This document shows positions 1-17,042 of a stretch of DNA of 43,299 bases, piece after piece. Position numbers and translations under genes: made by a program. Position 1 is the first letter of the stretch. Each line of letters opens with the position of its first letter. Source of the DNA: a virus; IMG/VR virus record IMGVR_UViG_3300017960_000771, positions 1-43,299 of that record. One strand, given 5' to 3'. Under the pieces are notes generated by a model that had not been told where the DNA came from, did not search any database, and worked only from the letters and a program-made list of their open reading frames with translations.

Positions 1-1
1 A

Positions 2-1457: not shown

Positions 1458-1513
1458 GGAACAGGGGAGTGGGGGGATCGAAAACGGTCCTCCACCCCCC
1501 ACCAGGAGGAAAT

Positions 1514-3230: not shown

Positions 3231-3851
3231 ATCAATTACGGAGAAGGAATTCCAGCCTTGGCCGAAAAGCTCGGTATCTCCAAGAGAGAAGCAGCAGCCA
3301 GAAAAGAGAAGTACTTTGAGCCGTACCCGCTGGTACGAGAGTTCATCGAGGAAACACACGAAAGGTGCCGTAGAGAATTAGAGGTCTCTACGATCTTGGG
3401 TCGTAAACGGAGACTCAAAGAAGCTGACGCTGACTGGAAGGAAGGATTCTATAGCAGGCGGTATAAGAGGTGGGTCCCAGAACGTCCAGGGAAGTTAGCT
3501 GCTAGAGCTCTTCGACAAGCAGTGAATGCGATCATTCAGGGTTCAGCAGCAGAGGTAGCACGCCTAGCGCAGATCTTGTGTGAGCCCAAGGTCATGCGCG
3601 AGATTGGTTTGCATGACGAGTTGTCCCAACGTATCGAACAAGTCGGTGCGCGGCAGCTTCTTCAGGTTCACGACGAAGTCTTGTTCGAGGTACCGACAGA
3701 GAACTTGAAAGAGGGCATAGAGGTTTTGTCTCGTTCAATGGAAGCGCCGTTCAGATACGTTCCAGAACTTTTGGGGATCGACTTCGATGAACTATCGATC
3801 CCGCTTGATGTGGACGCTGGTTACGGCGAAGCTTGGTCGGAAGCACATTGA
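3231..3851 (+). CDS. polA: DNA polymerase I (family A), exon 2: fingers end and palm with motif C
   Basis: The last 206 codons of the spliced polymerase. Starting at ATC 3231, the protein continues motif B as INYGEG and then ALAEKLGISKREA, aligning without gap to the Pol I pattern FGxxYG...LA..L.I...EA; this fixes the 3' splice site after G3230. Motif C is QVHDEVLFEVP (His620, Asp621), the second catalytic Asp of the palm. The NAIIQGSAAEVARLA helix before it is typical of family A. The gene ends at TGA 3849-3851. A separate protein from the ATG at 2979 would begin with intron-derived residues without homology, so it is not proposed. With no 5'-nuclease domain, the protein is similar in overall plan to T7 DNA polymerase. 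Confidence 0.93.
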   Translation: MNYGEGIPALAEKLGISKREAAARKEKYFEPYPLVREFIEETHERCRRELEVSTILGRKRRLKEADADWKEGFYSRRYKRWVPERPGKLAARALRQAVNAIIQGSAAEVARLAQILCEPKVMREIGLHDELSQRIEQVGARQLLQVHDEVLFEVPTENLKEGIEVLSRSMEAPFRYVPELLGIDFDELSIPLDVDAGYGEAWSEAH

Positions 3852-3913
3852 TGAACAAACGCGACAAACCGATTGTGCTGCGCATCATTCCATTTCTGTT
3901 GAGGAGGAAGAAA

Positions 3914-4075
3914 ATGGAGAAGTACGGAGTTGAAGTCGACAAAGAGAAAGTCGATGAACAGAAGAAGAAAGCTCCGGGCGAGAAAACTGCGGGAACGGAC
4001 GATCCCAACGTGAACGTTCCCAAGGACCCCGATAAGGGAACAGAGCCTTTCGAGAAAAAACCGAAAGAGGACTGA
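3914..4075 (+). CDS. Small charged protein, unknown function (53 aa)
   Basis: ATG 3914 follows GAGGAGGAAG (3901-3910), a strong ribosome-binding site; the longer in-frame start at 3833 overlaps the polymerase end and has none. The product is 53 residues, rich in Lys, Glu, Asp and Pro, beginning MEKYGVEVDKEKVDEQ and ending TEPFEKKPKED. The layout (EVD-x-EKV start, NVNVPK, then GTEPFE) resembles small phage zinc-ribbon proteins in which cysteines stand near these positions, but no cysteine is present here. That resemblance comes from memory and is weak. The gene ends one base before the GTG start of the recombinase gene, so the two are probably translated together. Confidence 0.6.
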   Translation: MEKYGVEVDKEKVDEQKKKAPGEKTAGTDDPNVNVPKDPDKGTEPFEKKPKED

Positions 4076-4076
4076 C

Positions 4077-5444
4077 GTGCCCGCCAAAAAGAGTAAGAAG
4101 AAAACAGCGAAGAAGACAGGGAAGAAAACAGCGAAGAAGAAAGATAGCGAGAAGTGGGACAAGTTTCCGAAGCCCAACCCGAGAGACGTGCTCAGATCGA
4201 TCAACATGCGTTTTGGAGACACGGGCCCCGTCATCAGAGAAGCTAGCGAAGCATGGGACGCATCAGATCTACGTCGGCCTAGTGGGATCCCGAGCCTAGA
4301 TCTGGCGACAGGTGGAGGGCTCGTAGCGGGAAAGGTACATCAGTTTGATGGTCCAGAGTCGGTAGGTAAAAACTACATACTCTACCGCTACTTCGCTCAA
4401 GCGCAAAAGAACTACGGTGACGATGCTTGCTTGTCGATGGCGTGTTTCGAAGCCTTCGTGGACAAGCATTTTGCGCAAATGTGCGGGTGCAAGATCGCAA
4501 TGAGCGAATACGACATCAGAGTCACGAACAGAGCAAGGGAAATCAGGGGAGAGCCCCCGCTGACACGAGCGGAGAAGAAAGAAGCTCTCTCTGTGCCGGG
4601 CGTCGGAACCTTCCACATCTTCGAAGGTCCCGCAGAAAACGTACTCGACGGAATCATCGAGGCCGTGTCATCCAACGTCTACCAGATCATCGGCATCGAC
4701 TCTTGGGATTCCATGCTCACGGCTGCAGAAGACAGAGCCACAATGGACGAGGTACCACAGGTAGCCTCACCAGCCACCATTCAAACCAGGTGGGCCAAAA
4801 AGGTGTTGGACGCCTTCAACGTGGTCTACCGCTGCCCACAATGCGGCTACAGCCCATTGGAGAAGAAGGTCACCAACTATTCGCAGATGAACTTCAATTG
4901 GATTTGTCCAAACTGCTCATGGAAGGGTCTGGACCCGGCGAACGAGATCAACGAGACCACGGTCTACTGCATCCGTCAAGTCCGCGCAAAGATCCAAATG
5001 AGTGGAGGGAAGATCTACGGGCGACCCTACAAGTCGGAAGGAGCCCACGCGCTACAGCACCTAAACCACATCCGTGTGAGTATGCACCCCGGGTCTTCTA
5101 TCAAAGAAGGCAACGTAAAGATCGGCAAAGAGGTCAACTGGGAAGTGTCCAAGGCCAAGGCCGGAGCACGGGAAGGGTCAACTGGGTCTTTCACGCTGTA
5201 CTTCGATCCGGTTGAAGTGGACGTGGCTAGGGACATGTTCTCCCAATGTGTCAAGCGCGGAGTTATCTGTTCCCTGCCTCAAGGGTGGTACGAGATCCCG
5301 GACATCGAAATGGACGGGGAGGCACTGCGCGTCCACGGCAAGGAAAAGCTCATCAGAACTATCGAAGACAGTGAGGACTTGGTAGATGAGCTACGAGAGA
5401 TTCTCTACATCAAGGCAGGCCTCTCGCACGTGAGGTTCCAATGA
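4077..5444 (+). CDS. RecA/UvsX-like recombinase with lysine-rich N-terminal tail and zinc-ribbon insert
   Basis: A 455-residue protein from GTG 4077. Residues 1-25 are almost only Lys, Ala, Thr and Ser (KKTAKK repeats), like a histone H1 tail. The ATPase core follows: IPSLDLATGGGLVAGKVHQF then Walker A GPESVGKN (92-99), nearly RecA's GPESSGKT but with Asn in place of the Mg-binding Thr. Glu125 in CFEAF corresponds to the RecA region after Walker A. IIGIDSWDS (204-212) is Walker B. A four-cysteine ribbon (253, 256, 277, 280) is inserted before the segment with QVR, LNHIRVSM and VNWEVSKAKAG, which matches RecA's L2 and downstream strands. Role: ATP-dependent strand exchange in recombination-linked replication. 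The neighbouring resolvase and Cas4-like genes support this. It shares an ATGA overlap with the next gene. Confidence 0.85.
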   Translation: MPAKKSKKKTAKKTGKKTAKKKDSEKWDKFPKPNPRDVLRSINMRFGDTGPVIREASEAWDASDLRRPSGIPSLDLATGGGLVAGKVHQFDGPESVGKNYILYRYFAQAQKNYGDDACLSMACFEAFVDKHFAQMCGCKIAMSEYDIRVTNRAREIRGEPPLTRAEKKEALSVPGVGTFHIFEGPAENVLDGIIEAVSSNVYQIIGIDSWDSMLTAAEDRATMDEVPQVASPATIQTRWAKKVLDAFNVVYRCPQCGYSPLEKKVTNYSQMNFNWICPNCSWKGLDPANEINETTVYCIRQVRAKIQMSGGKIYGRPYKSEGAHALQHLNHIRVSMHPGSSIKEGNVKIGKEVNWEVSKAKAGAREGSTGSFTLYFDPVEVDVARDMFSQCVKRGVICSLPQGWYEIPDIEMDGEALRVHGKEKLIRTIEDSEDLVDELREILYIKAGLSHVRFQ

Positions 5445-6019
5445 AGCTGCAAATGAGAGTGGCCCCGCTAGGGTATGGAAAGAGGTGTCATGCCTGTAAA
5501 ACTGTAGGGCAGATATCATCCTTCCAGCTTTGGCGGGGTAACTCTCTCGAAAAGAACATCCAGCTCTGTAACGACTGCCTCAATCAGGAAGTAACGGCTG
5601 ATGTCACGTTGGGCCCAACAGAAAAAGCCCCAGATCCATTCAAGAGCAAACAAGCCCGTAAGCAGGTGAAGCAGTCCAGAAAGATGGAAGCTGCACTAGC
5701 AGAGAAAATGGGAGGGCGTGCTCAACCTGGATCTGGGTGCTCGCGCTTATCTGGGTTCAAGGGAGACATCAGGAAGATCGGCAGCTGGCGAGTGGAGCAC
5801 AAGTACACCGACGCCGCAAACGTCTGGTCATTGCGTCTATCGGACCTCGCCAAGATCACTGGATTAGCCATGGACGCCGACGAGTACCCAGCGCTAGTAA
5901 TCGAGTATCGCAAAGCACGAGAGTCTTTCGCGATCATCCCGCTAACCCTTTTCCTGGAGATGGTCCATGAAGCTGAGGAACATTCAGCACCTCCACGAGG
6001 CAGACGAAAAAGACGTTAA
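5441..6019 (+). CDS. Phage Holliday-junction resolvase-like PD-(D/E)XK nuclease with N-terminal zinc finger
   Basis: This 192-residue protein begins at ATG 5441 inside the recombinase stop (ATGA). Two CxxC pairs (Cys16/19 and Cys43/46) form a probable zinc finger. The nuclease part is the phage resolvase pattern: a Glu helix with GGR and PGSG (Glu83; residues 91-99), then GDI (Asp109), then WRVEHKYT with the E-x-K pair Glu119/Lys121, then an LSDLAKI helix with Lys138, then PALVIEYR. These residues build the metal site of the PD-(D/E)XK fold found in archaeal Hjc-like and phage junction resolvases. Expected role: cutting branched DNA left by replication and strand exchange. Its end overlaps the next gene by 53 bases. 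It could also be a general structure-specific endonuclease. Confidence 0.75.
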   Translation: MKLQMRVAPLGYGKRCHACKTVGQISSFQLWRGNSLEKNIQLCNDCLNQEVTADVTLGPTEKAPDPFKSKQARKQVKQSRKMEAALAEKMGGRAQPGSGCSRLSGFKGDIRKIGSWRVEHKYTDAANVWSLRLSDLAKITGLAMDADEYPALVIEYRKARESFAIIPLTLFLEMVHEAEEHSAPPRGRRKRR

Positions 6020-6809
6020 AGAGGCTCTAGGCCATATCCAGTTCATCCCCAAAATCGAATCATACCTCGAAGACTTGAATCTCGAGCAGCACCCAAAAAG
6101 GCTGGGAGTCTTCAGTGCCTCTGACTTGGGCAACAAGACCGGACGCTCGCTTTGTGGAAAGTACCCTATCGGGTGTGCGAGGTTGCTTTACTACCGTTAC
6201 GTCGGAGTGGAACCACGAGACTCCATCCCTCCACGACTACGCAGAATCTTCGACACTGGGCACAAGATCCACGATCAGCTCCAAGGTTACTTGCACAAGG
6301 TGGCTTCCGAATCTAAGCAAGAGTCCTTCGCGGACGAGGTCAAGTTCGACGAGACTAAGTCTCAGCTGGCTGACGAGTATGACATAGTGTCTACCGCTGA
6401 TGGAGTTTGGGAGATAGAAGCTCCAGACATAGACCTCTGTTACGGTTTAGAGATCAAGTCGATGAACGGAGACTTGTTCAAGAAACTTAACGGCCCGGAG
6501 CGGTACCACGTTGTGCAAAGCCATGTATATATGGCGTGCCTCGATCTCCCATTCATGGTGATCCTTTACTACAACAAGAACGACTCCTCCATGGCTGAGT
6601 TTGTAGTCAGGTTCGAATACGACATCTGGCACGCCATCACGGAGAAGATCAACTACGTGCGAAAGTGCGCTGTGGAAGAAGAGGAACCGGAGCAAGAGAT
6701 CGGATTTCATTGCCGCACTTGCAGGTACTCGTACATCTGCAAACCACCTAAACCCCAAAAGAGGAACATTCGTATGGGGCGAAGGAGGTTCAGCTTGAGG
6801 GGAGAGTGA
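5967..6809 (+). CDS. Cas4/RecB-like PD-(D/E)XK exonuclease with probable Fe-S cluster
   Basis: A 280-residue protein; ATG 5967 has CTGGAGATGG upstream, and the gene overlaps the previous one by 53 bases. The RecB-nuclease order is visible: His99/His102 in FDTGHKIHDQLQ, Asp145 in STADGVWE, the E-x-K pair Glu162/Lys164 in GLEIKSM, and the QxxxY motif Gln184/Tyr188. Cysteines lie before the core (Cys63 and Cys70, in LCGKYPIGCARLLYYR) and after it (Cys249, Cys252, Cys258 in CRTCRYSYIC). The latter three with one N-terminal Cys would make the Cas4/AddB-type iron-sulfur cluster that staples the fold. The likely role is resection of DNA ends for recombination. There is no cas gene or CRISPR nearby, so a role in spacer acquisition is not suggested. 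Confidence 0.8.
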   Translation: MKLRNIQHLHEADEKDVKEALGHIQFIPKIESYLEDLNLEQHPKRLGVFSASDLGNKTGRSLCGKYPIGCARLLYYRYVGVEPRDSIPPRLRRIFDTGHKIHDQLQGYLHKVASESKQESFADEVKFDETKSQLADEYDIVSTADGVWEIEAPDIDLCYGLEIKSMNGDLFKKLNGPERYHVVQSHVYMACLDLPFMVILYYNKNDSSMAEFVVRFEYDIWHAITEKINYVRKCAVEEEEPEQEIGFHCRTCRYSYICKPPKPQKRNIRMGRRRFSLRGE

Positions 6810-6810
6810 G

Positions 6811-7506
6811 ATGCCTAAGGGCGCGACCAAACTCGTTGAGTCTCTCCAAATCGATTCCAGAGAAGGAGAAGAGGCCTACGACGTAGCTAGATCTGCACAC
6901 GATGAGATGATATCCCGCGGTATCCATCTTCCAGAGCGACCCGACTTTCCGTCGAAGCACAAGTTCATTGGAGAAGATGGATCTCCGGAGATACCGTTCG
7001 ACATCCAAGACCTGAACGAGAAAGAGCTAGGTCAGCTTTATCACATCGTCAACTCTTGGTACTCCTACGTGGTGGGCCAATGGGCTCTCGTAGAGAACCA
7101 GTACATTGTGGCTAAAGAACAATTCAAGCTAGTGGCGGCCAAAGTAAGGTTGGGCAAGCAAGGAAAAGTCCAAGACAAGACAGATCGACAAATTGCAGAT
7201 CGACGTTTCGTCCTGGCCAATGCCAGAGCGATGGAGCTCAAGTGCTTGTTCAATCTACTCTCGAAAGTCAAGGACAAGTACGAGTCCGACATCAAGATGA
7301 TTTCTCGTGGAATCACCTTGAGGGAGCAAAAGATCAAGACTGGAGCTAGAGCAGGAGCACTAGCGGCAAGAAAGATCAAGATCAGAAACGCCGAGGATCC
7401 ACCGCACTACACAGAGATTGACGAGGAGCACGAAGATCAGCCGATACCCAGGGTTAGAAAGAAGCGCCCCCCTAGAAGACGCCCCCCGTCGAAAAAGTGG
7501 AAGTGA
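6811..7506 (+). CDS. Unknown helical protein of the recombination operon
   Basis: The protein is 231 residues, starting at ATG 6811 behind GGGGAGAG, one base after the nuclease stop. No catalytic motif is recognised. Residues about 70-175 look like long amphipathic helices with few Gly or Pro (LGQLYHIVNSWYSYVVGQW, then Lys/Arg-rich helices), consistent with a coiled coil. The C-terminus from about 180 is strongly basic and Arg/Pro-rich (PRVRKKRPPRRRPPSKKWK), suggesting nucleic-acid binding. Its place between a Cas4-like nuclease and a RusA-like resolvase makes a recombination accessory role possible, for example a recombinase loader like UvsY. That is only inference from position and shape. 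Confidence 0.75.
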   Translation: MPKGATKLVESLQIDSREGEEAYDVARSAHDEMISRGIHLPERPDFPSKHKFIGEDGSPEIPFDIQDLNEKELGQLYHIVNSWYSYVVGQWALVENQYIVAKEQFKLVAAKVRLGKQGKVQDKTDRQIADRRFVLANARAMELKCLFNLLSKVKDKYESDIKMISRGITLREQKIKTGARAGALAARKIKIRNAEDPPHYTEIDEEHEDQPIPRVRKKRPPRRRPPSKKWK

Positions 7507-7508
7507 CG

Positions 7509-7973
7509 ATGGAGGAGTTCTACAAGCTGCAAGCCACTCTGGAAATGCCGCCCACCAGCAACAATATCTACATCTCCGTCGGCAAGAGGAGGCAGAAATC
7601 GAGCTTGGCCAGGGCTTGGCAGAATAGAGCGGTGAAAGAGATTACAAGACAATCAAACCTGACGATCCAGAGTGAGTTCGACCCCGAGCGCATGTATTGG
7701 TTGGACTTGACTTTCTACTTCGATGTCGTGGTTAACAAAGGGTGGCACGAGTTCTACAAAAGAGGGGCCAAGAAGGGGCAGAGGAAAGCTGACAGTAAAT
7801 GGAAGAAGATCGATCTAGGGAACAGATTGAAGCTTCTCGAAGACACTGTGAAGATAGCTGCAGGTGTGGACGATAGCTCGACTTTTGTTCTGCACCTCAT
7901 CAAGACTTGCGATCCGAAAAATCCTCGTGTAGAAGTATGCCTGTACTCTCTGCCGTCGGAAGATGAGCCATGA
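7509..7973 (+). CDS. rusA: RusA-family crossover junction endonuclease-like protein
   Basis: ATG 7509 is preferred (GGAAG at 7499-7503); a GTG four codons upstream at 7497 is also possible. In the 154-residue product, PPTSNNIY (14-21) matches the conserved RusA start where Asn residues follow the first strand. KIDLGNRLKLLEDTV (100-114) corresponds to the catalytic D-x-D-N-x-x-K region. The DD pair at 121/122 and Lys132 also fit the family, as does VEVCLYSL near the end. RusA dimers cut Holliday junctions symmetrically using Mg ions. Unusual: the second acidic position of the D-x-D motif reads Gly104 here, so activity cannot be assumed. The gene ends in an ATGA overlap with its neighbour. Confidence 0.8.
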   Translation: MEEFYKLQATLEMPPTSNNIYISVGKRRQKSSLARAWQNRAVKEITRQSNLTIQSEFDPERMYWLDLTFYFDVVVNKGWHEFYKRGAKKGQRKADSKWKKIDLGNRLKLLEDTVKIAAGVDDSSTFVLHLIKTCDPKNPRVEVCLYSLPSEDEP

Positions 7974-8458
7974 GCTACAAGCAGGAAATCGTCGAAGTAC
8001 AACCAGACGAGGAGGCTCCGGACCCAGATCACAACGAAGGATTCTATTGCCACCTGGAACTGATCAAGAAGAAAGGTCGCCGTAAAAAGGCAGACCCGTA
8101 CCAGTACAAGAAGACATACATCCCATGGACAGACATCAACAGCACTGAGTTGGTTCATCTCTCAACGTACGGGCTGGCCCCCGGAAGCAGAGAAGAGATG
8201 AGCAGATGGAACGTTGTCTGCCGTGGTTTGCGTAGGCAGGAGCTGATTGGCATCATCCGAGGTGAGGTGGATGCAAAAGAGATGAGAGCCAATCCGGCAC
8301 ATGTGGCCCGGGACCGACTGTCTCACTTGATCTACAACTACTGGAAGTACATACATACGCAGATCAAATGCAACACGCTTTGCTGGGAGTGCCCGGACGC
8401 TAAAGCTTTCGAGTGCATGTTAGAGAACAAAGATATCCTACGTGCGGAGGACGCTTGA
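7970..8458 (+). CDS. Unknown phage protein with C-terminal cysteine cluster
   Basis: A 162-residue protein from ATG 7970, overlapping the RusA-like stop as ATGA. The N-terminus is acidic (VEVQPDEEAPDPDHNEG), the middle basic (KKKGRRKKADPYQYKK). The C-terminal third holds CNTLCWECPDAKAFEC, four cysteines in 16 residues, which could bind zinc or an Fe-S cluster. Residues 75-115 look helical with basic faces (SRWNVVCRGLRRQELIGIIRGE). No family is recognised. It sits among recombination genes and shares a TGATG junction with the next small cysteine protein, so the two may act together. Confidence 0.75.
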   Translation: MSYKQEIVEVQPDEEAPDPDHNEGFYCHLELIKKKGRRKKADPYQYKKTYIPWTDINSTELVHLSTYGLAPGSREEMSRWNVVCRGLRRQELIGIIRGEVDAKEMRANPAHVARDRLSHLIYNYWKYIHTQIKCNTLCWECPDAKAFECMLENKDILRAEDA

Positions 8459-8685
8459 TGCCCCCAGCCAAAAAGATTTGCATGTCTTGCGTGAGGCTAG
8501 GAAACTGTGCAGACGCTACTGTAGAAATGCTAAAGAACGATCGAGGCTGTGGATCTTGGTTCGCAGCTCATCCCAACGAAGTAGTTGCCCGACGTAAAGC
8601 GCTCTCGGTCGCGGGGACGCGAGCGCTCGAAGCCATGATTTCCAAATCCCCGCCCAAGAAAACCGCCACGGACTACAGGAGGTAA
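8458..8685 (+). CDS. Small cysteine-containing protein, possible zinc finger (75 aa)
   Basis: ATG 8458 overlaps the previous TGA (TGATG); a longer frame from 8413 would overlap the neighbour by 46 bases and is less likely. The product starts MPPAKKICMSCVRLGNCADA and has CGSWF further on, so Cys8, Cys11, Cys17 and Cys30 could form one zinc site or a small Fe-S site. The rest is basic, with a Ser/Pro/Lys tail. The pattern C-x2-C-x5-C-x12-C recalls WhiB-like or wedge-type [4Fe-4S] proteins only loosely. Function unknown. Confidence 0.7.
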   Translation: MPPAKKICMSCVRLGNCADATVEMLKNDRGCGSWFAAHPNEVVARRKALSVAGTRALEAMISKSPPKKTATDYRR

Positions 8686-8688
8686 CCA

Positions 8689-9315
8689 ATGGCCAGTGAA
8701 GAAACTTTCACAAGAGAAGAGATGCTCGACATGCCGCGTTTGCAGGTTCGTCGAAGATGTCGAGCACGCGGACTGAGTGCGGAAGACTGTGCCCAGATGA
8801 AGTTCGAAGACATGGTTGACTGGCTCATAGAAGACGAGGGCGGCGGCAGTAACTCGAAAGCGAAGAAGGCGACGAAGAGGTCTTCCAAGAAAGCAACCAA
8901 GAAGACCGCCGCAAAGGAAACGAAGAAAGCTCCGGCAAGGACCACTCGTAAGAAGCGGGCGGCGAGATCTGAGCCGGAGGAAAGAGAGAAGCCGACCGGA
9001 GAAGTCGTCGGCGACGACCTCGTCAACGTCTTGCTCGAGAAGTTCGCTGATATGGACGAGAGGTTCCACGCTCTAGAGGAAAGGGTGGACTCCATCGGCG
9101 AATTCATGGACAAGAACACGTCCAGCATCGTCGAGATCTTGAACGAAGTCCGCGCCGACACCTACGGTATCGCTCGCAGACAGCAACACCTCGGTAACTG
9201 GATGTTCGCTGAGGGAATCCTCCCCGAAGAAAGCGCCCCGGACGAGATGGATTTCGAGGCTCTGGAAGAGGCCATCGAGGAGGAATGCGGGGGAAACGAG
9301 GACGGCGACGAGTAA
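8689..9315 (+). CDS. Histone-H1-like lysine/alanine-rich DNA-binding protein (zero-frame product)
   Basis: A 208-residue protein with a perfect ribosome-binding site AGGAGG three bases after the previous stop. Residues 7-47 (TREEMLDMPRLQVRRRCRARG then EDMVDWLIE) look like a small helix-extended-helix domain of the SAP/HeH kind. Residues 56-90 are a KKATKK/AKKT-type basic linker, as in histone H1 and bacterial H1-like proteins. Residues 105-165 form acidic helices with heptad leucines (LEKFADMDERFHALEERVDSIGEFM), a likely coiled coil. The C-terminus is acidic. It may compact or organise replicating phage DNA. A -1 frameshift signal at 9291-9326 sits in its last codons and would replace the final five residues by a 68-residue extension (see the next entries). 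Confidence 0.8.
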   Translation: MASEETFTREEMLDMPRLQVRRRCRARGLSAEDCAQMKFEDMVDWLIEDEGGGSNSKAKKATKRSSKKATKKTAAKETKKAPARTTRKKRAARSEPEEREKPTGEVVGDDLVNVLLEKFADMDERFHALEERVDSIGEFMDKNTSSIVEILNEVRADTYGIARRQQHLGNWMFAEGILPEESAPDEMDFEALEEAIEEECGGNEDGDE

Positions 9316-9326
9316 CAGCTCGTCGC
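9291..9326 (+). promoter_or_regulatory. -1 programmed ribosomal frameshift signal (slippery heptamer plus stem-loop)
   Basis: GGGAAAC at 9291-9297 is read in the zero frame as G GGA AAC, the canonical X XXY YYZ heptamer. Seven bases later a perfect 8-bp stem, GCGACGAG (9305-9312) and CTCGTCGC (9319-9326), encloses the loop TAACAG that carries the zero-frame stop TAA (9313-9315). A slip of the two tRNAs to GGG AAA moves translation into a frame open until 9503. The heptamer phase, spacer length and stem are all what bacterial -1 frameshifting uses. The parts are seen directly; that it works is inferred. Confidence 0.65.
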
Positions 9327-9503
9327 GGAACCATACCACCTGATGGAGAACAGAAGCTCACCGTGACTGAAGAGGAGTTCTTCGAGATGTCTGTAGAAGA
9401 ACTCCTCGAGCTTGCCGACCGCATAGGGGTCAGCCTGCAGGGAGCCCTATCGATCGAGCAAGCTCGCACCCGCCTATTGAACGACGCAACCTTCCTTCCA
9501 TAA
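9297..9503 (+). CDS. -1 frame extension of the H1-like protein (or separate small SAP/HeH-like protein)
   Basis: After the proposed slip, translation resumes at CGA 9297 and adds 68 residues, giving a fusion of about 271. The extension is first basic (RGRRRVTARRG), then acidic with SVEELLELADRIGVSL and LSIEQARTRLLND, a two-helix pattern like SAP/HeH domains and similar in kind to the N-terminus of the zero-frame protein. If not made by frameshifting, the frame could start at ATG 9285 (GAGGAGGA immediately upstream, spacing too short), GTG 9363 (no close ribosome-binding site) or ATG 9387 (GAGGAG nine bases upstream, but this would drop part of the acidic helix). The transcript terminator follows directly after the stop, as expected if this is the last coding part of the operon. 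Confidence 0.6.
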   Translation, partial: RGRRRVTARRGTIPPDGEQKLTVTEEEFFEMSVEELLELADRIGVSLQGALSIEQARTRLLNDATFLP

Positions 9504-9505
9504 GC

Positions 9506-9523
9506 GCCGCCCTTCGGGGCGGC
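9506..9523 (+). terminator. Hairpin terminator of the replication operon
   Basis: GCCGCCC (9506-9512), loop TTCG, GGGCGGC (9517-9523): a perfect 7-bp GC stem closed by the very stable C(UUCG)G loop, two bases after the last stop codon. The following CTCTCCCAATCTTCTCTCTT is pyrimidine-rich but has no clean T run, so termination may be partial. The UUCG loop exists only in the plus-strand RNA, which supports the strand. Confidence 0.65.
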
Positions 9524-9605
9524 CTCTCCCAATCTTCTCTCTTAGCTGCAAAAAAGATCAAGATCGTGGGATAAGACTTATGGACAGGAAAAGGATAATC
9601 CTTTT

Positions 9606-10120
9606 CTTGTTGCGGCAAGCAGCTGCCTGTGCGGGTAGGAAGCTGCCTAGTACCGATTGATTGACAAGGCGCCGTGCGCACACACGGTAAAAAGCCCTGT
9701 CAATCAATCGGGAGCCGATGCAGGGATTGCCTCCTCCTCAGACGAAGGTCACCTAACGGTGGCAACGGAGGCAGCTCCTCACGCTATAGTGAGGTTGTCC
9801 GAGAGTTCCGGCGCGGACGTAAAAAACAGTCGGATGCATCGTCGCTGATTCCGCCCTCTAGGCGACGACTAGAGTAGAGAGGGTTTGCTGGCCTGGTCGA
9901 CCGGCCAAAAGGTCGAACGTAGTTGACCCACGCTGCGACAAATACCTGGTACAGGGAAACCAGGAGAAGGTGGGCAGATCCCTAACCGGCGCAAGACGGG
10001 GATTGGAAGTGTCGCTCGCTGTCTTTCGGAGACGGAAGAAAAAGAGCTCTTGCAGAAGAGATCCGGATCTCTTCTTAGCTGTCACACGACTTGTGCGAGC
10101 AGTCCTTGTGCCGCAACGAG
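9606..10120 (+). ncRNA. Large structured non-coding RNA candidate (about 515 nt)
   Basis: CTTGTTGCGGCA (9606-9617) pairs over its full length with TGCCGCAACGAG (10109-10120), one pair being U-G; on the minus strand that pair would be A-C, so the plus strand is favoured. Inside are: CCGATTGATTGACA/TGTCAATCAATCGG (9653-9666/9698-9711, 14 bp) capped by CCGTG/CACGG; GCCTCC/GGAGGC (9729/9767) around CACC-TAAC-GGTG; CCTCAC/GTGAGG (9777/9789); GTCCG/CGGAC (9797/9814); TCGTCGC/GCGACGA (9839/9862), whose loop CCCTCT pairs with AGAGGG (9878-9883) as a pseudoknot; CCCAC/GTGGG (9927/9970) around CCTGGT/ACCAGG; ATCCC/GGGAT; GTCT/AGAC; and AGAAGAGATCC/GGATCTCTTCT (10054-10075). GNRA-like loops (GAAA, GCAA) occur in this sense. 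The style recalls GOLLD or ROOL phage RNAs; identity unproven. No convincing promoter was found. Confidence 0.75.
10054..10075 (-). terminator. Possible terminator for the minus-strand late block (alternative role of an RNA helix)
   Basis: The 11-bp inverted repeat AGAAGAGATCC/GGATCTCTTCT is followed, in minus-strand sense, by GCAAGAGCTCTTTTTCTTCC, which contains a T5 run about 10 bases later. It could stop late transcripts before they cross the whole structured RNA region. In the plus sense it fits as one helix of that RNA. The T run is further from the stem than in a typical terminator, so this is tentative. Confidence 0.25.
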
Positions 10121-10222
10121 TGCGTCCATTTCCTGACTCGTGGGGAGAAGATGCCTACTAGGAGGAGGATCGAATAGAGGAGCAGAAACTCTAGACCGCC
10201 GCAAACGCAACAGCAGAGTCGA

Positions 10223-10771
10223 TCACTTGACGGCATACCCTACAGCTACCACAGTCGCAGCCGTTGTGACAATCCCTACAACGAGACCGAATGTCCACGA
10301 GCGGTACCACTTCTTGGCCTTGTCTCGCTCCTTGCGAGCTCGGTCTCTCTGCTGCTCGAGGACTTTCACTCGACTCTTCTCGAGATCGAGCTGTGCTTTC
10401 AGGCGATCGGCCATGTACTTCTTCTCAATCTCTACTCGTTCAGTCGCCTTATGGCGCTCGAGCCAGCGAAGGCGACGGAGGCCTTGGATCTTGAGCCCCA
10501 ACTGCAGCACCTTGTTCTGGTCCAGGAGGACCGCGCTGTAGTCCAACCGGAAGGGCTTCTTCGCCCCCTTCTCGGTCACCAGGCTCCCAGCCTCGATCCC
10601 CAGGGACGGCCGGAACTTGAGGTCTGGAACCAGGATGCTCTCATCCGGCCCTGGACAACGCCAATTAGGGGCCTTCTTCGGGTTCGAGTAGTCCTGCTCC
10701 ATACAAGGCTCTGACTGCGCCCAGGACGGGCCGCAGATTAGGAGGGTGAACAGCGCGACCATAGTCCTCAT
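10223..10771 (-). CDS. Exported protein with coiled coil and C-terminal membrane anchor (spanin-like topology)
   Basis: A 182-residue protein; ATG 10771 has AGGAG upstream and overlaps the previous stop (ATGA). Residues 1-19 are a Sec signal peptide (MRTMVALFTLLICGPSWA, likely cut after SWA). Residues 95-150 are charged and heptad-like (KKYMADRLKAQLDLEKSRV then EQQRDRARKERDKAKKW), a coiled coil. Residues 156-180 form one membrane helix (FGLVVGIVTTAATVVAVGYAV). A signal sequence plus C-terminal membrane helix joined by a coiled coil is the plan of unimolecular spanins, which fuse inner and outer membranes at lysis; those carry a lipobox, whereas LLIC here lacks the small residue before Cys. 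It is the last gene of the late block. Alternative: a tail-needle or membrane-anchored virion protein. Confidence 0.75.
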   Translation of the reverse strand: MRTMVALFTLLICGPSWAQSEPCMEQDYSNPKKAPNWRCPGPDESILVPDLKFRPSLGIEAGSLVTEKGAKKPFRLDYSAVLLDQNKVLQLGLKIQGLRRLRWLERHKATERVEIEKKYMADRLKAQLDLEKSRVKVLEQQRDRARKERDKAKKWYRSWTFGLVVGIVTTAATVVAVGYAVK

Positions 10772-11739
10772 CTCAGCTCCTGCACCCCTTCTCGTACGCC
10801 GTGCACCATGTCAGGCACCCAACCGAAGGTCGCCCCGGTACCCAGGCCAGTCAAGGCACCCCTGAGCATCTTCCCACGGCGAGCTCCGAGCAGGGCGCCG
10901 ATCCCTAGACCTGCTGCACCTCCTAGACCAGGGCCAGCTTTCCGTAGGAATCTCGTGACCTTGCCTGGCTCCTGCTCCTGGGCCTGGGCTATCTTGGACA
11001 GCTTTCTCTTGGATTTCACCAAGTTCCGCAATCGCTCCACAGAGACCCTAGAGATAGGCCCGAGGAACTTGGGGTCGTCGTAGTGCTTGAGGTAAGCCTC
11101 TTTGGCCTCCCTTTTACTCCGCACCCCTAAAATCACCTTGTCCTCGTCGTAGCCCTTGCCGTCATCCTTGCGTTGGTGGACCACGAAGGCATCGGGAGCC
11201 TCTTTGTCGGGGCCGACGAAAACATCAACGGGCTCTCCGTCGGCGCCCCTGGTGCCTACAAGGTATCCGTAGGGCATCCTCATCTTCGTGCGCCACTCAT
11301 GGCCATTTGAGTCCTTGCCCTTCCTCACGCTGCCTTTGCGGTTCTCGATGGCGATCTGCAGGCCCTGGACGTTGTCGTGGCCTTGGAGCTTGTAGGCCAG
11401 CTTCGTAGCCATCTCCTTCGACTTGGACTTGCGGGACAAGATCTTGTCCCATTGCTTTGGTGTCACGCCTTCTGGTGGAGGGGGCTCAGCTTCTTTGGTC
11501 ATCGCGATCTTGTCCCGCACCCAAGGAAGCTTAGGGTACGAAGCTGTACGCCCCTCACGTTGCCCAACCGGGCCTATCTCAGTCCAGCTCGAGCCCTTTA
11601 TCTTGCCGATGTTGTGGACGCGCTTCAAGGTCGGGACGATCGAAGAGTTGGGCGTCGCGTAAAGGTCGTCAATGTCACCACCCAGCTGCCCTATCTTCTC
11701 CAGCTCGTCGAAGAATCTTTCTAGAGACTGTCGATCCAC
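10768..11739 (-). CDS. InPase-domain (inorganic-pyrophosphatase-like) phage protein
   Basis: A 323-residue protein from GTG 11739 (GAGGTGG upstream), overlapping the preceding gene by 19 bases. The domain at about 127-240 has the phage InPase pattern: LQIAIENRKGSVRKGKD, then MPYGYLVGT, then GADGEPVDVFVGPD, then DEDKVILGVRSKREAKEAY. In polyvalent and virion proteins this domain (Pfam InPase, as I remember it) resembles inorganic pyrophosphatase, with acidic residues for metal-bound phosphate; its true substrate is unknown. Residues 1-17 (LERFFDELEKIGQL) share the FFDEL-x-KI motif with another protein at 12053-12319. The C-terminus (about 267-290) is Gly/Ala-rich and hydrophobic (GLGGAAGLGIGALLGARRG) and may touch membranes. 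It lies among membrane proteins after the tailspike gene. Confidence 0.75.
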   Translation of the reverse strand: MDRQSLERFFDELEKIGQLGGDIDDLYATPNSSIVPTLKRVHNIGKIKGSSWTEIGPVGQREGRTASYPKLPWVRDKIAMTKEAEPPPPEGVTPKQWDKILSRKSKSKEMATKLAYKLQGHDNVQGLQIAIENRKGSVRKGKDSNGHEWRTKMRMPYGYLVGTRGADGEPVDVFVGPDKEAPDAFVVHQRKDDGKGYDEDKVILGVRSKREAKEAYLKHYDDPKFLGPISRVSVERLRNLVKSKRKLSKIAQAQEQEPGKVTRFLRKAGPGLGGAAGLGIGALLGARRGKMLRGALTGLGTGATFGWVPDMVHGVREGVQELR

Positions 11740-12044
11740 GATGCCACCTCGTCTATGGGCTTCTTCTTGACTTCCTCAAACTCAGCCCGCTGCTCGTCGG
11801 TCATCGCCGCGAGCTTTTCCCCGTGCTTCTCCTCGAGCTCTTCTAACGCCTTTTCCTTGTTGTCTATGGCGTCGTTGGTGTCCTTGATAGCCTGGTCTGC
11901 GGCATCATTGGTCGTGGAAGAGTTCACATCGTCGGGAGGAGACTTGGTCCACCAGAGATACCATCCCAGTAGAGCGAGACAGATCCCTACAGGGAAGACG
12001 ATCCACTTCCAGTTCTTCTTCAGCCACTCCCAAACCTTGACCAT
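11721..12044 (-). CDS. Small membrane-anchored coiled-coil protein
   Basis: ATG 12044 (AGGAG six bases upstream) gives 107 residues; GTG one codon earlier is possible. A basic Trp-rich start (VWEWLKKNWKW) leads into one membrane helix (about 13-33, IVFPVGICLALLGWYLWW). The rest is an acidic helical stalk (ALEELEEKHGEKLAAMTDEQ). This N-in topology with an outside coiled coil is like an inner-membrane spanin (Rz), but also like many small phage membrane proteins. No partner lipoprotein is evident next to it. It overlaps the InPase-like gene by 19 bases. Confidence 0.7.
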   Translation of the reverse strand: MVKVWEWLKKNWKWIVFPVGICLALLGWYLWWTKSPPDDVNSSTTNDAADQAIKDTNDAIDNKEKALEELEEKHGEKLAAMTDEQRAEFEEVKKKPIDEVASWIDSL

Positions 12045-12052
12045 CACTTCTC

Positions 12053-12319
12053 CTACGCAGCCAGACGAAGAACACGCTTGAGCAAACCTGGCTTCGTTGC
12101 CTTCTTGGCCACTCGACCCTGCATCGCGCGATGTCGAGCAACAGCAGGAGCCATCTGCTTCTTGACAGCTTGCTGCCTCTTCCAGTCGGCATGACCGATG
12201 GAGTAGGCCTCTGGGGTCATCCGCCCCGCGCCACGTTGGATGGCGGCCTCAAACTGCGGTGTAGATCTCGCGATCTTCTGTAGCTCGTCAAAGAACGCAC
12301 TCCTCGTCCAGTCGTTCAT
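12053..12319 (-). CDS. Small basic protein with N-terminal FFDELQKIA motif
   Basis: An 88-residue protein from ATG 12319 with GGAGT upstream. It begins MNDWTRSAFFDELQKIARS, matching in position and sequence the FFDELEKI start of the InPase-like protein two genes away. The remainder is basic (AAIQRGAGRM, KRQQAVKKQ, RVAKKATKPGLLKRVLRLA) with a probable amphipathic C-terminal helix. No known family. The shared start could be a peptide that directs proteins to the virion or to a common partner; this is inference. Confidence 0.7.
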   Translation of the reverse strand: MNDWTRSAFFDELQKIARSTPQFEAAIQRGAGRMTPEAYSIGHADWKRQQAVKKQMAPAVARHRAMQGRVAKKATKPGLLKRVLRLAA

Positions 12320-12320
12320 C

Positions 12321-12674
12321 TTAAGACTCCTTCTCGGGGAACTTGACGCCCGCCTTCTCCAGGGCGCCTTTGACGATCTGGAAGACCTTGTCAGCTAGCC
12401 ACCCAGCCACTAGACCAAACATGATCTTGGTGGCTAGGGATGAGGTGGCCATCTCTGGTAGGGGCACACCGGGGATGAAACACAGACCTACAGAAAGTGG
12501 GTACGGCAGTACGGGCTGTAGAGACTTCCATACACCATGATGTGCAAAACCCCCTACGATCTTCCCATCCTTCTTCTTGGTGCCGATTCTCTTGATCGTG
12601 CTTAGCACGACAAACGTGCAGAACGAGATCAACACGATTTGCCAACCCAAGAACATGTCTACGATCTTATCCAT
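12321..12674 (-). CDS. Integral membrane protein, possible holin
   Basis: A 117-residue protein; ATG 12674 follows GGAGTAC. At least two membrane segments are visible, at about 8-25 (FLGWQIVLISFCTFVVLS) and 85-102 (IMFGLVAGWLADKVFQIV), with a third weakly hydrophobic region (PYPLSVGLCFIPGVPLP, about 57-73). Size and charged C-terminus (ALEKAGVKFPEKES) suit a holin, and it lies beside other membrane proteins, but no endolysin is present in the window to support a lysis cassette. A similar layout is found in phage membrane proteins of unknown role. Confidence 0.7.
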   Translation of the reverse strand: MDKIVDMFLGWQIVLISFCTFVVLSTIKRIGTKKKDGKIVGGFAHHGVWKSLQPVLPYPLSVGLCFIPGVPLPEMATSSLATKIMFGLVAGWLADKVFQIVKGALEKAGVKFPEKES

Positions 12675-12700
12675 GGCGTACTCCCTAATCCTAATGAGTC

Positions 12701-15700
12701 TTAAACATTGTTCTTGTTCAATGGATCGTTGTCAGAGGCAGTCTCGTAAAGATGCCCACCCCCAACAATGAAGGTGGCTGCGCTTGTCATCACGTTCCCA
12801 ATCACAGCTCCACCAGATCCAGACTGTACGGCAAAAGCGTGCCGGCCACAGTAATTCCCCATCACAACACACTCGTCTGCGTTAGTTCCGATAATGGAGT
12901 TGTATCCGCTAGCATCGTCTGCAGTCTCAGAATCTCCGCCGATCCAGTTTCCCATGACAATCGACGCGTCAGCGTTGATCATGTCGATGGCGTAAAATTG
13001 ATCCGGGCCGGCAGTTCCGCTGTCCCCATGGAACTTCAGGAAGTTGTTGCAGCACGAACAGTTGGCGTTTAGCACAATGGCCTTGTAGTGCGCCAGCGTC
13101 GTCTTCCCGTCAACCAGGTCTTGGAAGATGTAGTTGCTGGAGACAACGATGTGCTCGACGGCGCAATTGATGATGGCCTGAACCGCGCTGCCGCCATCGT
13201 TGGACGAGCCGTAAGAGTCGACGAAAGAGTTCCCACTGATGACTCCGCTGCCCCCCATGTAGATGATGTTGGAAGCAGTGTCTGCACTAGGATCGTCCCC
13301 GCACTCGACGAACGAGTTGTTGGAGATGATCAATCCTTCATAGTCTGTAGCGAAGTTCTGCACGTAGAGCGTAGCAGAAGTGGACCCCTGACCCTTGCTG
13401 CCTCGGATCACATTTCCATCTACCGTCACGCCATAGGGCAAAACACTGCCAGACTCAGCGATGTGGATCGCCCTCCCTAGCCAACGTGTCCCGTCACCGA
13501 AGGAGTTCGAGCTCACCGTAACTCCACCGAACCCGGCAATGTAGAGGCACGCGAAACCAGCAGCGCTGACACCGTCAAAGTGATTGCCGGAGAAAACGAA
13601 ATGGTGGTCTGTAGAGACAGATCCCGAGTTGTGAAGGTACACGCCGTGCTCGTCAGCAGAACCGAAGTAGTTCCCGACAACACAAGACCCGTACAGCTTC
13701 TCCATGTAGATCCAGGTGTCCGGTTCTACAGATCTGGAAAACAAGTTGGCCTCGACGCGACACTGTCCAGCCTCTGCGTGGATAGCGTAACCAGAGCCAG
13801 TGTGTCCTGCGATGAAGACATTGTTCTCGATCAAACAGAAGTCGTCTTCGGTGTCGGTTCCCTGGTAGTGGATGCAAGGCGTATCGTTAGGCGTGTAGTC
13901 CCAACTGTCGATGTAGTTGTTCCTGATTACAGCCGAGACGACGCCTCCAGTAGGGAAGAGCGCAAAGTACTCTTCGATGTAGTAGGCAAAGTTGCCTTCC
14001 ACGTATACTCCACGGATGTCATTGTCCGTCAGCAGAAAGCTCGTGCAGTTGTACACGTGGTTCTTGGAAATACGTGTCCACGAATTCTGATGGAGGGAAA
14101 CGCTGAGCTCGAGGGAGAACGGAACCAATACCGCGTTGAACGTGTTCCCTCTGGCGACGAGCTTCATCGTCGTATTGGCACCGGACATCTCGTCGAAGCT
14201 GATGCCCTTACCCGCAGTGAGGAAGTAGTTGTTCTCGAAGTTAAGAACAAACTCCCCAGACCCCGACGCGCGATAGGGAAGTACGCCGTCCGACGCGGTG
14301 TTGAGAATGAATACGTTTCCGTGAAGATGCGAGTTGTGCCCGACCCGCACGGCGTTGGTCACGTTGGCGTCACCGATAAAGTAGCAGTCGTCAATCCAAA
14401 GACTGTCACCAACGTGGGTGATCAATCCGTCTGGGCGTGTCCCTCCCAAACCATTCGCGTCGATCACACACTTCTCAATGTGTGTGAACGTCCACTTGCC
14501 AGTGGTGAGAGAGTCTAGCAAACCGCCAACGTTGTGCCCCGAAAGCGTACCGCAGTTGCGGATGTGGATGTACCCTACGGCAGTGGAGTCCGCCAGAAAC
14601 ACCACCTTGTACGAATCGGTGCCCGCTTGAGCGAAAAAGATGTTCTCGAATCTGCTGCTAGATCCCGGCCGGTAGAAACAACTGACCTGGTTGTCTGCTC
14701 CAGACATGGAAGCAGCCACCATCGTCAGGTTCTTGAACACTACTTGGTTGAGACCACAGTCGATCGCGGAAACAGTCTCGTCGTCGGTGGTGAAAATCTG
14801 GGACGTAGTCTGGTCGTCACCTTCGATGACGCAGCTACCGCGAATCACAAGCTGCGCAGCAGTCGCATCAACAGCCCCAATGATCCTGATCCTAGGAGGA
14901 GCCGTGGTCGGCGTGAGACCAACAGAACGTATGAGCGTGATGAAGTCTAGAGCTTCTTGAAGACGGTTGTTGGCAAAGTCGCAGTCACCGACACCAACAG
15001 TGACCACCATGCCGTTTGTTCTGCCGTCGTGAAGACGACGCACGTCGTACTTTTGCACGAACGAGGCGCCGATCCAGTAGTAGTAATACAACGGGATGTG
15101 CGCCATCGTGAGTGAGGCAGATGCTACTTCCTCGATCAGACCAGTTCCGGTATTGATCGCTAACCAACTTTGCTGACTATCTGTCGCGTTCAACGAATCT
15201 GCAGCGACGACGATACGGTCACCGTTGGGGGAGATGTAATACATCTCAGCCCAAGAGATCTCTCCCGTGGCGTCGGTGAAAGTGATGGAGGCGTTATTCA
15301 ACAACCCCATACCCACGGCGCCGTTCAAAACTGCCGTCTTACTGTTGAGAGACGTCAGGACAGAAGTGTGATCTCCTCCCAGGGCAGAATCCCCATCATT
15401 CAGTGACAAGTACCCGCCGAGGTGAGTGTCCCTGAACTGAACCTCGTTGGAGGAAAGCAAATTGAGGTGTGCAGGAGAAGCCCCAGTAGCCTCGAGGGTG
15501 AGCGCCACCCCGCTAGCACCCCTAACGCGCTCCACTACATCCAAGAGGTTATTGTCGAGATCGAAGTTCCCTGTAGCCTTCCTGCTACCGTCTTTCAAGA
15601 AAGACCCAGCGTGGATCTCTCCAACAGATCGACAGAATCCGCGGAACCACGAGTCGCGAACATTTGTGTCTGTCGTGAGCTCGTCCAACGTAGCGGCCCG

Positions 15701-16258
15701 ACCGAAAGCCAACCAGACAACGGTCCCGTCAGGAATGGTGTAGTTCGCGCCCAGCGCCCCCGTGACGGGATCTACCTTTCTGAAGGTAACGATAGGGTTG
15801 GTAGAGAACCCAGACCCGACCTGGCTGACGCTGAGAGCGTCTTTGATTTCCCGGACTACGATCTTGTCTCCGGTCGTTGGGTCGATCAGATCGTTGTACT
15901 TCTCATCCAGTACACTGATCAAAGAATCACGGACACTTTGATCTTCGGGGGTGTAGAATGTGTCTCCGCACCACACATCGGCAGAAAACGTGTACTCGTC
16001 GCCGTTTCCTCCCGCAGGAGTGAAAGTGACAAAGTCCGGGCGGGCGATCTGTTCCTCCATCCGCTCCTGGATGTACTCGTCGTTCTTACCGAGGGCATAG
16101 AGCCCTCTGTTGACCGCCGAAGAGAGACCGTCCTCTCCAAACTCTACTGCGCGACTTCCGGCTGCCCCGGGGGAGTCTGCGGCAACAACTTGAGGCGAGC
16201 CCGGGTAGAAGAGATCTCCCGCGCTACTGTCACCAAGAGGATGTGGAAGGTTGGACAT
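12701..16258 (-). CDS. Tailspike/receptor-binding protein with right-handed beta-helix
   Basis: A 1185-residue protein from ATG 16258 behind GGAGAGACAG. Residues 1-270 are an N-terminal attachment part (EYTFSADVWCGDTFYTP, VSQVGSGFSTNP, TIPDGTVVWLAFGR). From about 480 to 1140 the sequence is a long series of short coils ending in Asn turns: IRNCGTL, FENNYFL, IRNNYID, IENNVFIAG, FSGNHFDGV, VSSNSFGDG, ISNNSFVE, SGNSFVD and MGNWIGGD. This spacing of about 20-30 residues with N-x-F or N-x-I rungs is the pectate-lyase type parallel beta-helix of phage tailspikes. Such spikes bind and often cut surface polysaccharide. Catalytic residues cannot be assigned. It is the last large structural gene of the block. 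Confidence 0.85.
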   Translation of the reverse strand: MSNLPHPLGDSSAGDLFYPGSPQVVAADSPGAAGSRAVEFGEDGLSSAVNRGLYALGKNDEYIQERMEEQIARPDFVTFTPAGGNGDEYTFSADVWCGDTFYTPEDQSVRDSLISVLDEKYNDLIDPTTGDKIVVREIKDALSVSQVGSGFSTNPIVTFRKVDPVTGALGANYTIPDGTVVWLAFGRAATLDELTTDTNVRDSWFRGFCRSVGEIHAGSFLKDGSRKATGNFDLDNNLLDVVERVRGASGVALTLEATGASPAHLNLLSSNEVQFRDTHLGGYLSLNDGDSALGGDHTSVLTSLNSKTAVLNGAVGMGLLNNASITFTDATGEISWAEMYYISPNGDRIVVAADSLNATDSQQSWLAINTGTGLIEEVASASLTMAHIPLYYYYWIGASFVQKYDVRRLHDGRTNGMVVTVGVGDCDFANNRLQEALDFITLIRSVGLTPTTAPPRIRIIGAVDATAAQLVIRGSCVIEGDDQTTSQIFTTDDETVSAIDCGLNQVVFKNLTMVAASMSGADNQVSCFYRPGSSSRFENIFFAQAGTDSYKVVFLADSTAVGYIHIRNCGTLSGHNVGGLLDSLTTGKWTFTHIEKCVIDANGLGGTRPDGLITHVGDSLWIDDCYFIGDANVTNAVRVGHNSHLHGNVFILNTASDGVLPYRASGSGEFVLNFENNYFLTAGKGISFDEMSGANTTMKLVARGNTFNAVLVPFSLELSVSLHQNSWTRISKNHVYNCTSFLLTDNDIRGVYVEGNFAYYIEEYFALFPTGGVVSAVIRNNYIDSWDYTPNDTPCIHYQGTDTEDDFCLIENNVFIAGHTGSGYAIHAEAGQCRVEANLFSRSVEPDTWIYMEKLYGSCVVGNYFGSADEHGVYLHNSGSVSTDHHFVFSGNHFDGVSAAGFACLYIAGFGGVTVSSNSFGDGTRWLGRAIHIAESGSVLPYGVTVDGNVIRGSKGQGSTSATLYVQNFATDYEGLIISNNSFVECGDDPSADTASNIIYMGGSGVISGNSFVDSYGSSNDGGSAVQAIINCAVEHIVVSSNYIFQDLVDGKTTLAHYKAIVLNANCSCCNNFLKFHGDSGTAGPDQFYAIDMINADASIVMGNWIGGDSETADDASGYNSIIGTNADECVVMGNYCGRHAFAVQSGSGGAVIGNVMTSAATFIVGGGHLYETASDNDPLNKNNV

Positions 16259-16270
16259 CTGTCTCTCCTA

Positions 16271-16993
16271 TCAGAACCTAAGTTCCCACCGGATCTCGAG
16301 TGAGAAAGAAGTTGTTTTCGGGATCGCCTCGAAGGTGTTATAGGCCACCAACTGTTGTCTTCCGGCACCCACATAGCTAGGTGGGTTACCGGCGTCATAG
16401 ACGTTAGCGGCTTCTGGATCTTGGGTAGCTATGAACAGACCGACTTCTGAAAGGGGGACCACTGAGTAGGAGGGAACGTTCGCCTCGTTAACGTCGGTGG
16501 TATCGAACAGGTGGTCAAACCGAACTGTGCGGCTGCTGTTCAGAAACGTGACGGGTGTGATCACTGGAGCGAGCCACGTGTAAGGGTTTGCATCCAAGTT
16601 GATCTTCACGGGACGCTCAAGGTGCGTTACCGTGAGGTCGTCATCTGATTGGGCGTTACCCGTATTACCGGGAACCCCAGATGGGTCTGCTGGAGGGTAG
16701 TCAGTACTGAGCGGTGACGCGTACGCTGAAGGATGCGTTTGGCTATCCCCGCCGATACCCACTCCCATGAATTTGATGAACTCTCTGTTGCCGGCGCTCT
16801 CAGCGTAGTGGTCGTCCAGAGCAGTATTCGGCGCCACTACACGAGCTAGATACTCTCGACCGAGATCTACCCAGATATTGTGAGAGTGTCGGCAATGACG
16901 AGGGACAATCTTCCCGCGTTCTCGCGCAGTGATTGTCACGTTAGCCGGGATCAAAAGCCCCTTTGGTTTTAGCGGGTAGTCTCGAAGTTTCAT
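16271..16993 (-). CDS. Putative tail/baseplate protein, unknown (240 aa)
   Basis: ATG 16993 is preceded by GGAGAAAGC. The protein starts MKLRDYPLKPKGLLIPANVTITA and contains CRHSHNIWVDLGREYLARVV, FIKFMGVGIGGDSQ and SEVGLFIA, ending in beta-rich FSLEIRWELRF. The combination of NIWVDLGREYLA with MGVGIGGDSQ is, from memory, seen in small structural proteins next to phage tail-fibre and spike genes; I cannot name the family. It stands directly upstream of the tailspike gene in the transcript, so a connector or assembly role for the spike is plausible. Confidence 0.75.
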   Translation of the reverse strand: MKLRDYPLKPKGLLIPANVTITARERGKIVPRHCRHSHNIWVDLGREYLARVVAPNTALDDHYAESAGNREFIKFMGVGIGGDSQTHPSAYASPLSTDYPPADPSGVPGNTGNAQSDDDLTVTHLERPVKINLDANPYTWLAPVITPVTFLNSSRTVRFDHLFDTTDVNEANVPSYSVVPLSEVGLFIATQDPEAANVYDAGNPPSYVGAGRQQLVAYNTFEAIPKTTSFSLEIRWELRF

Positions 16994-17042
16994 TGCTTTC
17001 TCCGGAACCAGTCTATGATCTCTTCACCGCAAAGACAAGTGT

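Follow-up and report, generated by a model that had tools for sequence, protein, structure and literature searches.

A candidate structured noncoding RNA cassette in a variable slot between the early and late gene blocks of a phage

The window analyzed here, a 43,299-nt stretch of viral DNA (IMG/VR record IMGVR_UViG_3300017960_000771), corresponds to part of a larger contig, IMGVR_UViG_3300018080_000110 (149,224 bp), which matches both ends of the window at 100% and differs from positions 1–18455 by a single mismatch. The early genes of the window include those for polymerase A, a RecA/UvsX-like protein, and RusA- and Cas4-type nucleases. The early and late gene blocks are convergent, and between them lies a cargo slot, occupied in this phage by an apparent RNA cassette at about 9582–10080. 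A conserved small ORF forms the upstream border of the slot, and the final gene of the late block forms the downstream border (Table 1). The small ORF has homologues in seven IMG/VR contigs beyond the window's own and in L062, and it contains a 12-bp perfect hairpin (9372–9407) just 5′ of the cassette. A second hairpin follows it and is presumed to terminate the early operon; by eye, a hairpin with a T-run is also found at this site in L013, L015, L016, L017, and L027. On the late side, the minus-strand gene at 10768–11739 encodes a protein with an InPase (PF18823) domain, whose PHROGs matches are portions of very large proteins, some of them annotated as virion structural or DarB-like.

Table 1. 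Features of the cargo slot and its borders, in window coordinates
Feature	Position	Strand	Remarks
Conserved small ORF, 46 aa	9363..9503	+	upstream border of cargo slot
Hairpin GCCGCCC/GGGCGGC, presumed early-operon terminator	9506..9523	+	7-bp perfect stem
Promoter-like element GATCAAGATCGTGGGATAAG	9556..9575	+	similar motif before first slot cassette in six relatives
Proposed noncoding transcript, ~500 nt	9582..10080	+	both ends predicted
5′ hairpin, 13 bp	9583..9611	+	z −7.0, 0/200 shuffles equal; clashes with 12-bp closing helix
14-bp perfect helix 9653–9666/9698–9711, closing a long hairpin	9653..9711	+	hairpin z −7.9
Possible H-type pseudoknot, stems 9839–9845/9862–9868 and 9854–9859/9878–9883	9839..9883	+	
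3′ domain common to window and L015 (15749–15830)	10009..10083	+	73.5%, 83 columns, E 1.4e-7
GNRA hairpin UCUUUCG-GAGA-CGGAAGA	10022..10039	+	outer stem 10014–10017/10044–10047
Terminator-like hairpin AGAAGAGATCC/GGATCTCTTCT (10054–10075), then TAGCT	10054..10080	+	
3′ arm of proposed closing helix	10109..10120	+	29–40 nt past presumed transcript end 10080; doubtful
Final late-block gene, downstream slot border	10223..10771	−	7 relatives in alignment A3; L062 homologue

Relatives were collected with an alignment of the RecA-like protein (24 IMG/VR loci and one GTDB contig) and with a search of IMG/VR for the small ORF (8 loci, the window's own included), and the slots sought through either set held no RNA cassettes further to the two described here. 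The small bordering ORF is present in nine contigs, these eight from IMG/VR and L062. Slot content was counted in the eight contigs with both borders; L019 stops inside the slot. Apparently noncoding sequence fills the slot in two of the eight (the window's contig and L015), and protein genes fill it in five (L013, L016, L017, L027, and L062). The remaining slot, that of L026, is empty except for one hairpin and measures some 50–65 bp. A site that is variable or empty from one genome to the next is what marks a phage accessory (moron-type) cassette, and the cargo slot is such a site. The protein cargo of L016 (15578–16774) is a sulfatase-modifying-factor-like (FGE, PF03781) protein beside a short ORF. 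In L027, the slot ORF is 67 aa long with a weak codon score (0.044), so this cassette, which folds with a z of −6.0, could also be RNA. L014 and L018 have the ORF layouts of L015 and L013, respectively, and both end before the slot. A crude gene-gap script was uninformative, its gaps being filled by spurious ORFs.

A promoter-like element precedes the cassette, and similar motifs stand ahead of the first slot cassette in L013, L015, L016, L017, L027, and L062; the first cassette in each of the seven occupied slots is preceded by a motif of the kind GATC...GGNATAAG. TAAG is invariant in an alignment of nine motif starts from seven phages, and the L015 and L027 motifs deviate at the GG preceding the hexamer. 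Many motif sites have an upstream GATC, but because the sites were chosen partly for that string, its presence is no independent test. The element in the window is not a sigma-70 consensus promoter, and a general sigma-70 scan gave it no score. At the other end, the terminator-like hairpin of the window is homologous to the L015 copy and is without a good T-run; a canonical terminator scan accepted the L015 copy and not the window copy. By eye, a hairpin and then ..TTAGCT close the cassettes of L013, L015, L016, L017, and L027; this tail is not seen at the L062 cassette end. With a terminator that has no good T-run and with negative scans, we infer rather than observe the start and end of transcription. 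From the sequence, the noncoding RNA would probably run from about 9582 to 10080, and the boundaries of the original prediction, 9606 and 10120, must shift.

That no frame in this region looks coding was confirmed: all six frames of 9582–10082 score under the five phage genes compared and contain 3–7 in-frame stops. Codon scores and in-frame stops together argue against a protein-coding gene at 9582–10082. A tRNA or tmRNA identity was likewise rejected, as there is no tRNA in the window. The L015 cassette contains two overlapping open frames of 90 and 96 aa, and all six of its frames have negative codon scores.

The strong structure of the RNA is real. On the plus strand, 9606–10120 folds to a minimum free energy (MFE) of −224.9 kcal/mol, compared with a shuffle mean of −184.4 kcal/mol (z −5.98), and none of 100 dinucleotide shuffles folds as well. 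Across the cuts tested, z ranges from −5.6 to −6.2, with −5.6 for the proposed transcript 9582–10080. In a comparison of strands over 9582–10081, the plus strand reached −213.3 kcal/mol (z −7.9, from 15 shuffles) and the minus strand −204.0 kcal/mol (z −3.5). The background, 56 segments of 500 nt from 28 places in the window on both strands, has a mean z of −0.73 (sd 1.5, minimum −5.46). The most structured of these control segments falls in an insertion in the DNA polymerase gene that we read as a group I intron, which indicates that the fold measure probably detects real structured RNA. Much of the signal from the cassette belongs to two long hairpins, since 9712–10053, from which both are excluded, has a z of only −1.99 and is equaled by 3 of 100 shuffles. 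When the 149-kb contig was scanned in 300-nt tiles on both strands (1972 tiles), with correction for composition, the plus-strand tiles starting at 9601, 9751, and 9901 came at ranks 54, 687, and 323, the last two being ordinary. The tiles that begin at 9301 and 9451 fall at ranks 9 to 16, with the minus strand outscoring the plus strand; both include the early-terminator hairpin, and the tile at 9301 also includes a small-ORF hairpin.

The insertion interrupts the DNA polymerase A gene at 2933–3230 with about 298 nt. Its group I features are, as we take them to be, a P1 formed by the exon sequence UUCGGU and an internal guide sequence (IGS) GCCGAA with a U.G pair, a terminal G, and a P7-like AAGGUAUAGUC. 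Judged by these motifs rather than by a model match, the insertion is likely a group I intron. A 500-nt segment that starts at 3082 and overlaps the insertion folds with a z of −5.5. Alignments of the polymerase genes of L016, L019, L021, L028, L034, and L035 are likewise broken into separate pieces.

The individual elements proposed within the RNA differ in how well they hold. The 14-bp perfect helix is sound and is the strongest helix within 9500–10223, and, among the GNRA-like loops that had been suggested, the hairpin at 10022–10039 can form. The 12-bp helix said to close the whole region (9606–9617/10109–10120) exists as written, including its U-G pair at 9608/10118, but is doubtful as a fold because the transcript probably covers only about 9582–10080. 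A helix spanning more than 400 nt that is equal or better occurs in 3 of 100 shuffles; six 5′ bases of the closing helix are taken by the hairpin at 9583–9611, and 5 bp of it remain in the MFE structure of 9582–10125. The letters and coordinates of the H-type pseudoknot are exact, but the pseudoknot is only suggestive, as an equivalent element turns up in 14 of 200 shuffles. Its two stems total −17.0 kcal/mol with the pseudoknot penalty excluded, no clear gain over the −15.9 kcal/mol of the nested fold, and the local fold of this region is no better than shuffled sequence (z +0.5).

The second apparently noncoding cassette, in L015 (IMGVR_UViG_3300017987_000006), is about 340 nt long and is homologous to the window RNA at its 3′ end only, as found by a sensitive local blastn among related-phage loci. 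The two RNAs share the slot, a similar promoter motif, and the homologous 3′ end, but the L015 RNA has no blastn similarity over the 5′ three quarters and folds more weakly (z −2.45 for the entire RNA). A consensus fold of the 3′ domain has 22 pairs, among which one shows a compensatory change (U-A to G-C), one a one-sided change, and one is broken or gapped. The GNRA hairpin reads GCUUUCG-GAAA-CGGAAGC in L015; its loop has changed from GAGA to GAAA, so GNRA is kept. This hairpin is missing from the MFE structure in one shorter L015 cut, and the 3′ domain alone is barely better than shuffles (z −1.6 in the window and −1.1 in L015). Covariation in relatives is thus represented by one compensatory pair, but a single partial homologue provides too few sequences for proof; with n = 2, conservation between the window and L015 weakly suggests an RNA on the plus strand. 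Searches for more members gave little. The window RNA had no blastn match among phages and plasmids, nor the L015 RNA among phages. Against 10 related contigs at E<=10, one contig returned matches to the window RNA, three in number, at chance level and off the slot. A sensitive blastn at E<=1 over 49 loci, a set that omitted 13 loci repeating the window or L015 slot and kept L015 itself, found nothing beyond L015. In 18 records, a 3′-domain model built from the two sequences recovered nothing but these founders; over 32 sources it gave six extra rows, all at E 0.055 or worse, the best of them a palindrome on the opposite strand of the window. Scanned for an exact pattern, IMG/VR yielded only the window's contig and the L015 contig.

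The original prediction of an apparently noncoding, highly structured plus-strand RNA between the early and late phage blocks is thus supported in its structure, strand, and noncoding character; its borders and closing helix are doubtful, and its pseudoknot is suggestive. We consider the locus, once its borders are corrected, to be a credible and probably new cassette for a phage noncoding RNA. A narrow literature search over titles and abstract openings found no description of it, which is no proof that it is unpublished. The promoter-like motif, the lack of a credible frame, the plus-strand folding, the terminator-like hairpin, and the changeable slot lead us to favor, with about even confidence, a stand-alone accessory ("moron"-type) transcription unit whose noncoding RNA of about 500 nt acts in trans. 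Phages carry accessory cargo cassettes, or morons, and the cassette resembles these in having its own promoter-like motif, an end hairpin, and variable content at one site; it differs in that morons carry protein cargo, whereas the cargo here is apparently a noncoding RNA. RNA polymerase would transcribe it as a unit separate from the early and late operons, and the 5′ and internal hairpins could keep the RNA long-lived. The RNA might then work in trans, for example by binding or decoying a host or defense factor, rather than in cis on its neighbors. The conserved part would be the 3′ GNRA/terminator domain, leaving the 5′ part free to vary.

Folding strength has to be weighed against what else follows this promoter type in the phage family. 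The top three places in the contig scan were 145,200–145,650 and 31,101–31,550 of G001 and 9301–9750 of the window, and both G001 places are cassettes that open with a similar promoter motif. The first contains L044:11474–11917 (G001 145273–145716), a cassette in the same contig as the window RNA, with a similar promoter motif and a 128-aa orphan ORF of good codon usage: it scores 0.241, whereas the remaining frames of that strand score −0.36 and −0.098. Almost perfect hairpins follow one another along its mRNA (444 nt, MFE −255.7 kcal/mol, z −14.6). The ORF was found only in its own contig in a close-relative scan of IMG/VR and had no match in phage records or Pfam. The second, L040:10939–11475 (G001 30939–31475), is a hairpin-dense cassette 3′ of one of two divergent promoter-like sites; beyond it lie inverted repeats rich in A/T, among them a 12-bp A/T hairpin. 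For 24 motif sites, 23 of 48 picked by eye and not blind plus L027, the 350 nt downstream had a median z of −2.4, while that of 64 random segments was −0.5 (Mann-Whitney p 0.0004). The window RNA ranked third among the 24 (z −5.4); z exceeded −2.1 at 11 of these sites, and one of the random segments was as low as −7.9. Hairpin-dense sequence therefore follows this promoter type even in coding cassettes, and fold alone proves no RNA function. In the L015 phage, L053:7868–7990 (minus strand) shows by eye a promoter motif and then a leader or small RNA of about 115 nt, which has its own terminator-like end and precedes a small ORF; the 350-nt fold there is unremarkable (z −1.3).

These observations bear on the alternative that the cassette is decaying or neutral, an ex-cargo gene or hairpin-rich filler whose fold reflects accumulated long inverted repeats. 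Similar hairpins in L044 and in L027, each with an ORF, fit this explanation, as do the fall in z to about −2 when the two hairpins are removed and an L015 homology that spans only 83 columns. Against it, no trace of a frame is left, the promoter motif and end hairpin have been kept, and L015 has the same 3′ domain with a compensatory change. We judge decay or neutrality less likely than the accessory unit, although more likely than the other alternatives. A cis-acting role, in which the structured tract would block or insulate transcription from the opposite side or shield 3′ ends, is suggested by the position between convergent blocks and by the hairpins at both borders. However, L026 manages with about 50–65 bp and one hairpin, L013 and L016 fill the space with protein cassettes, and a barrier needs no promoter motif inside the slot. 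We find a role in cis improbable.

The size, phage location, and folding of the RNA had invited comparison with GOLLD and ROOL, and a divergent member of these families or a new class had been proposed. In the window, Rfam gave no match to any family at E<=1, and in 9300–10400 neither GOLLD nor ROOL appeared at E<=10; the ROOL and GOLLD models also had no match at E<=10 in three phage records, and Rfam found no credible match in the L015 slot. These negatives carry limited weight, because Rfam also failed, even at E<=10, on the likely group I intron in the same window, and a control for the ROOL model gave no match anywhere. Like the window RNA, GOLLD (RF02032) is a large structured noncoding phage RNA. 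Many GOLLD RNAs exceed 800 nt, whereas the window RNA is about 500 nt and has no covariance-model match; GOLLD is often encoded near phage tRNA islands, whereas in the contig about 20 kb separate the cassette from the nearest tRNA found, and about 90 kb from the tRNA cluster. ROOL (RF03087) is of similar size class (574 model positions), of phage origin, and complex in fold, with multiple pseudoknots, of which the window RNA shows one suggestive candidate; the window RNA has neither a match to the ROOL covariance model nor a tRNA neighborhood. As reported, the solved ROOL is 659 nt long, and in GOLLD the 3′ region is conserved and the 5′ region less so (PMC12286853). The window and L015 show that same pattern, in two sequences only. 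An RNA that self-assembles into an RNA-only multimer, as a GOLLD/ROOL-like RNA would, is consistent with this pattern, with the similar size and complexity, and with internal palindromes that could pair between copies. Given the absence of an Rfam match and of adjoining tRNA genes, an unproved pseudoknot, and a partial homologue in one relative only, we regard a GOLLD/ROOL-like RNA as very unlikely; kinship to these families was not borne out, and the proposal of a new class may still apply. A divergent ribozyme or intron-type element outside a gene, an idea encouraged by the escape of the likely polymerase intron from Rfam, is hardly credible for a cassette that interrupts no exon, lies between a complete small ORF and the end of a late gene, and shows no group I P7-type motif by eye and no Rfam match.

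A bolder form of the accessory-unit explanation is that the cassette represents a novel class of large noncoding RNA in phages, unrelated to GOLLD and ROOL, that spreads as swappable cargo and brings its own promoter. The conserved GNRA domain at the 3′ end would anchor a fast-evolving 5′ body, and the RNA could possibly serve as a self-associating scaffold or as a decoy against host RNA-based defense. We offer this as speculation with a small chance of being right. If the cassette is transcribed, phage accessory slots hold large structured RNAs in addition to proteins, and this slot would provide a defined locus, with relatives that carry other cargo or none, for probing the role of big phage RNAs. 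More broadly, this phage family has the peculiarity, open to testing, that hairpins crowd the sequence after one type of promoter in coding and noncoding cassettes alike.
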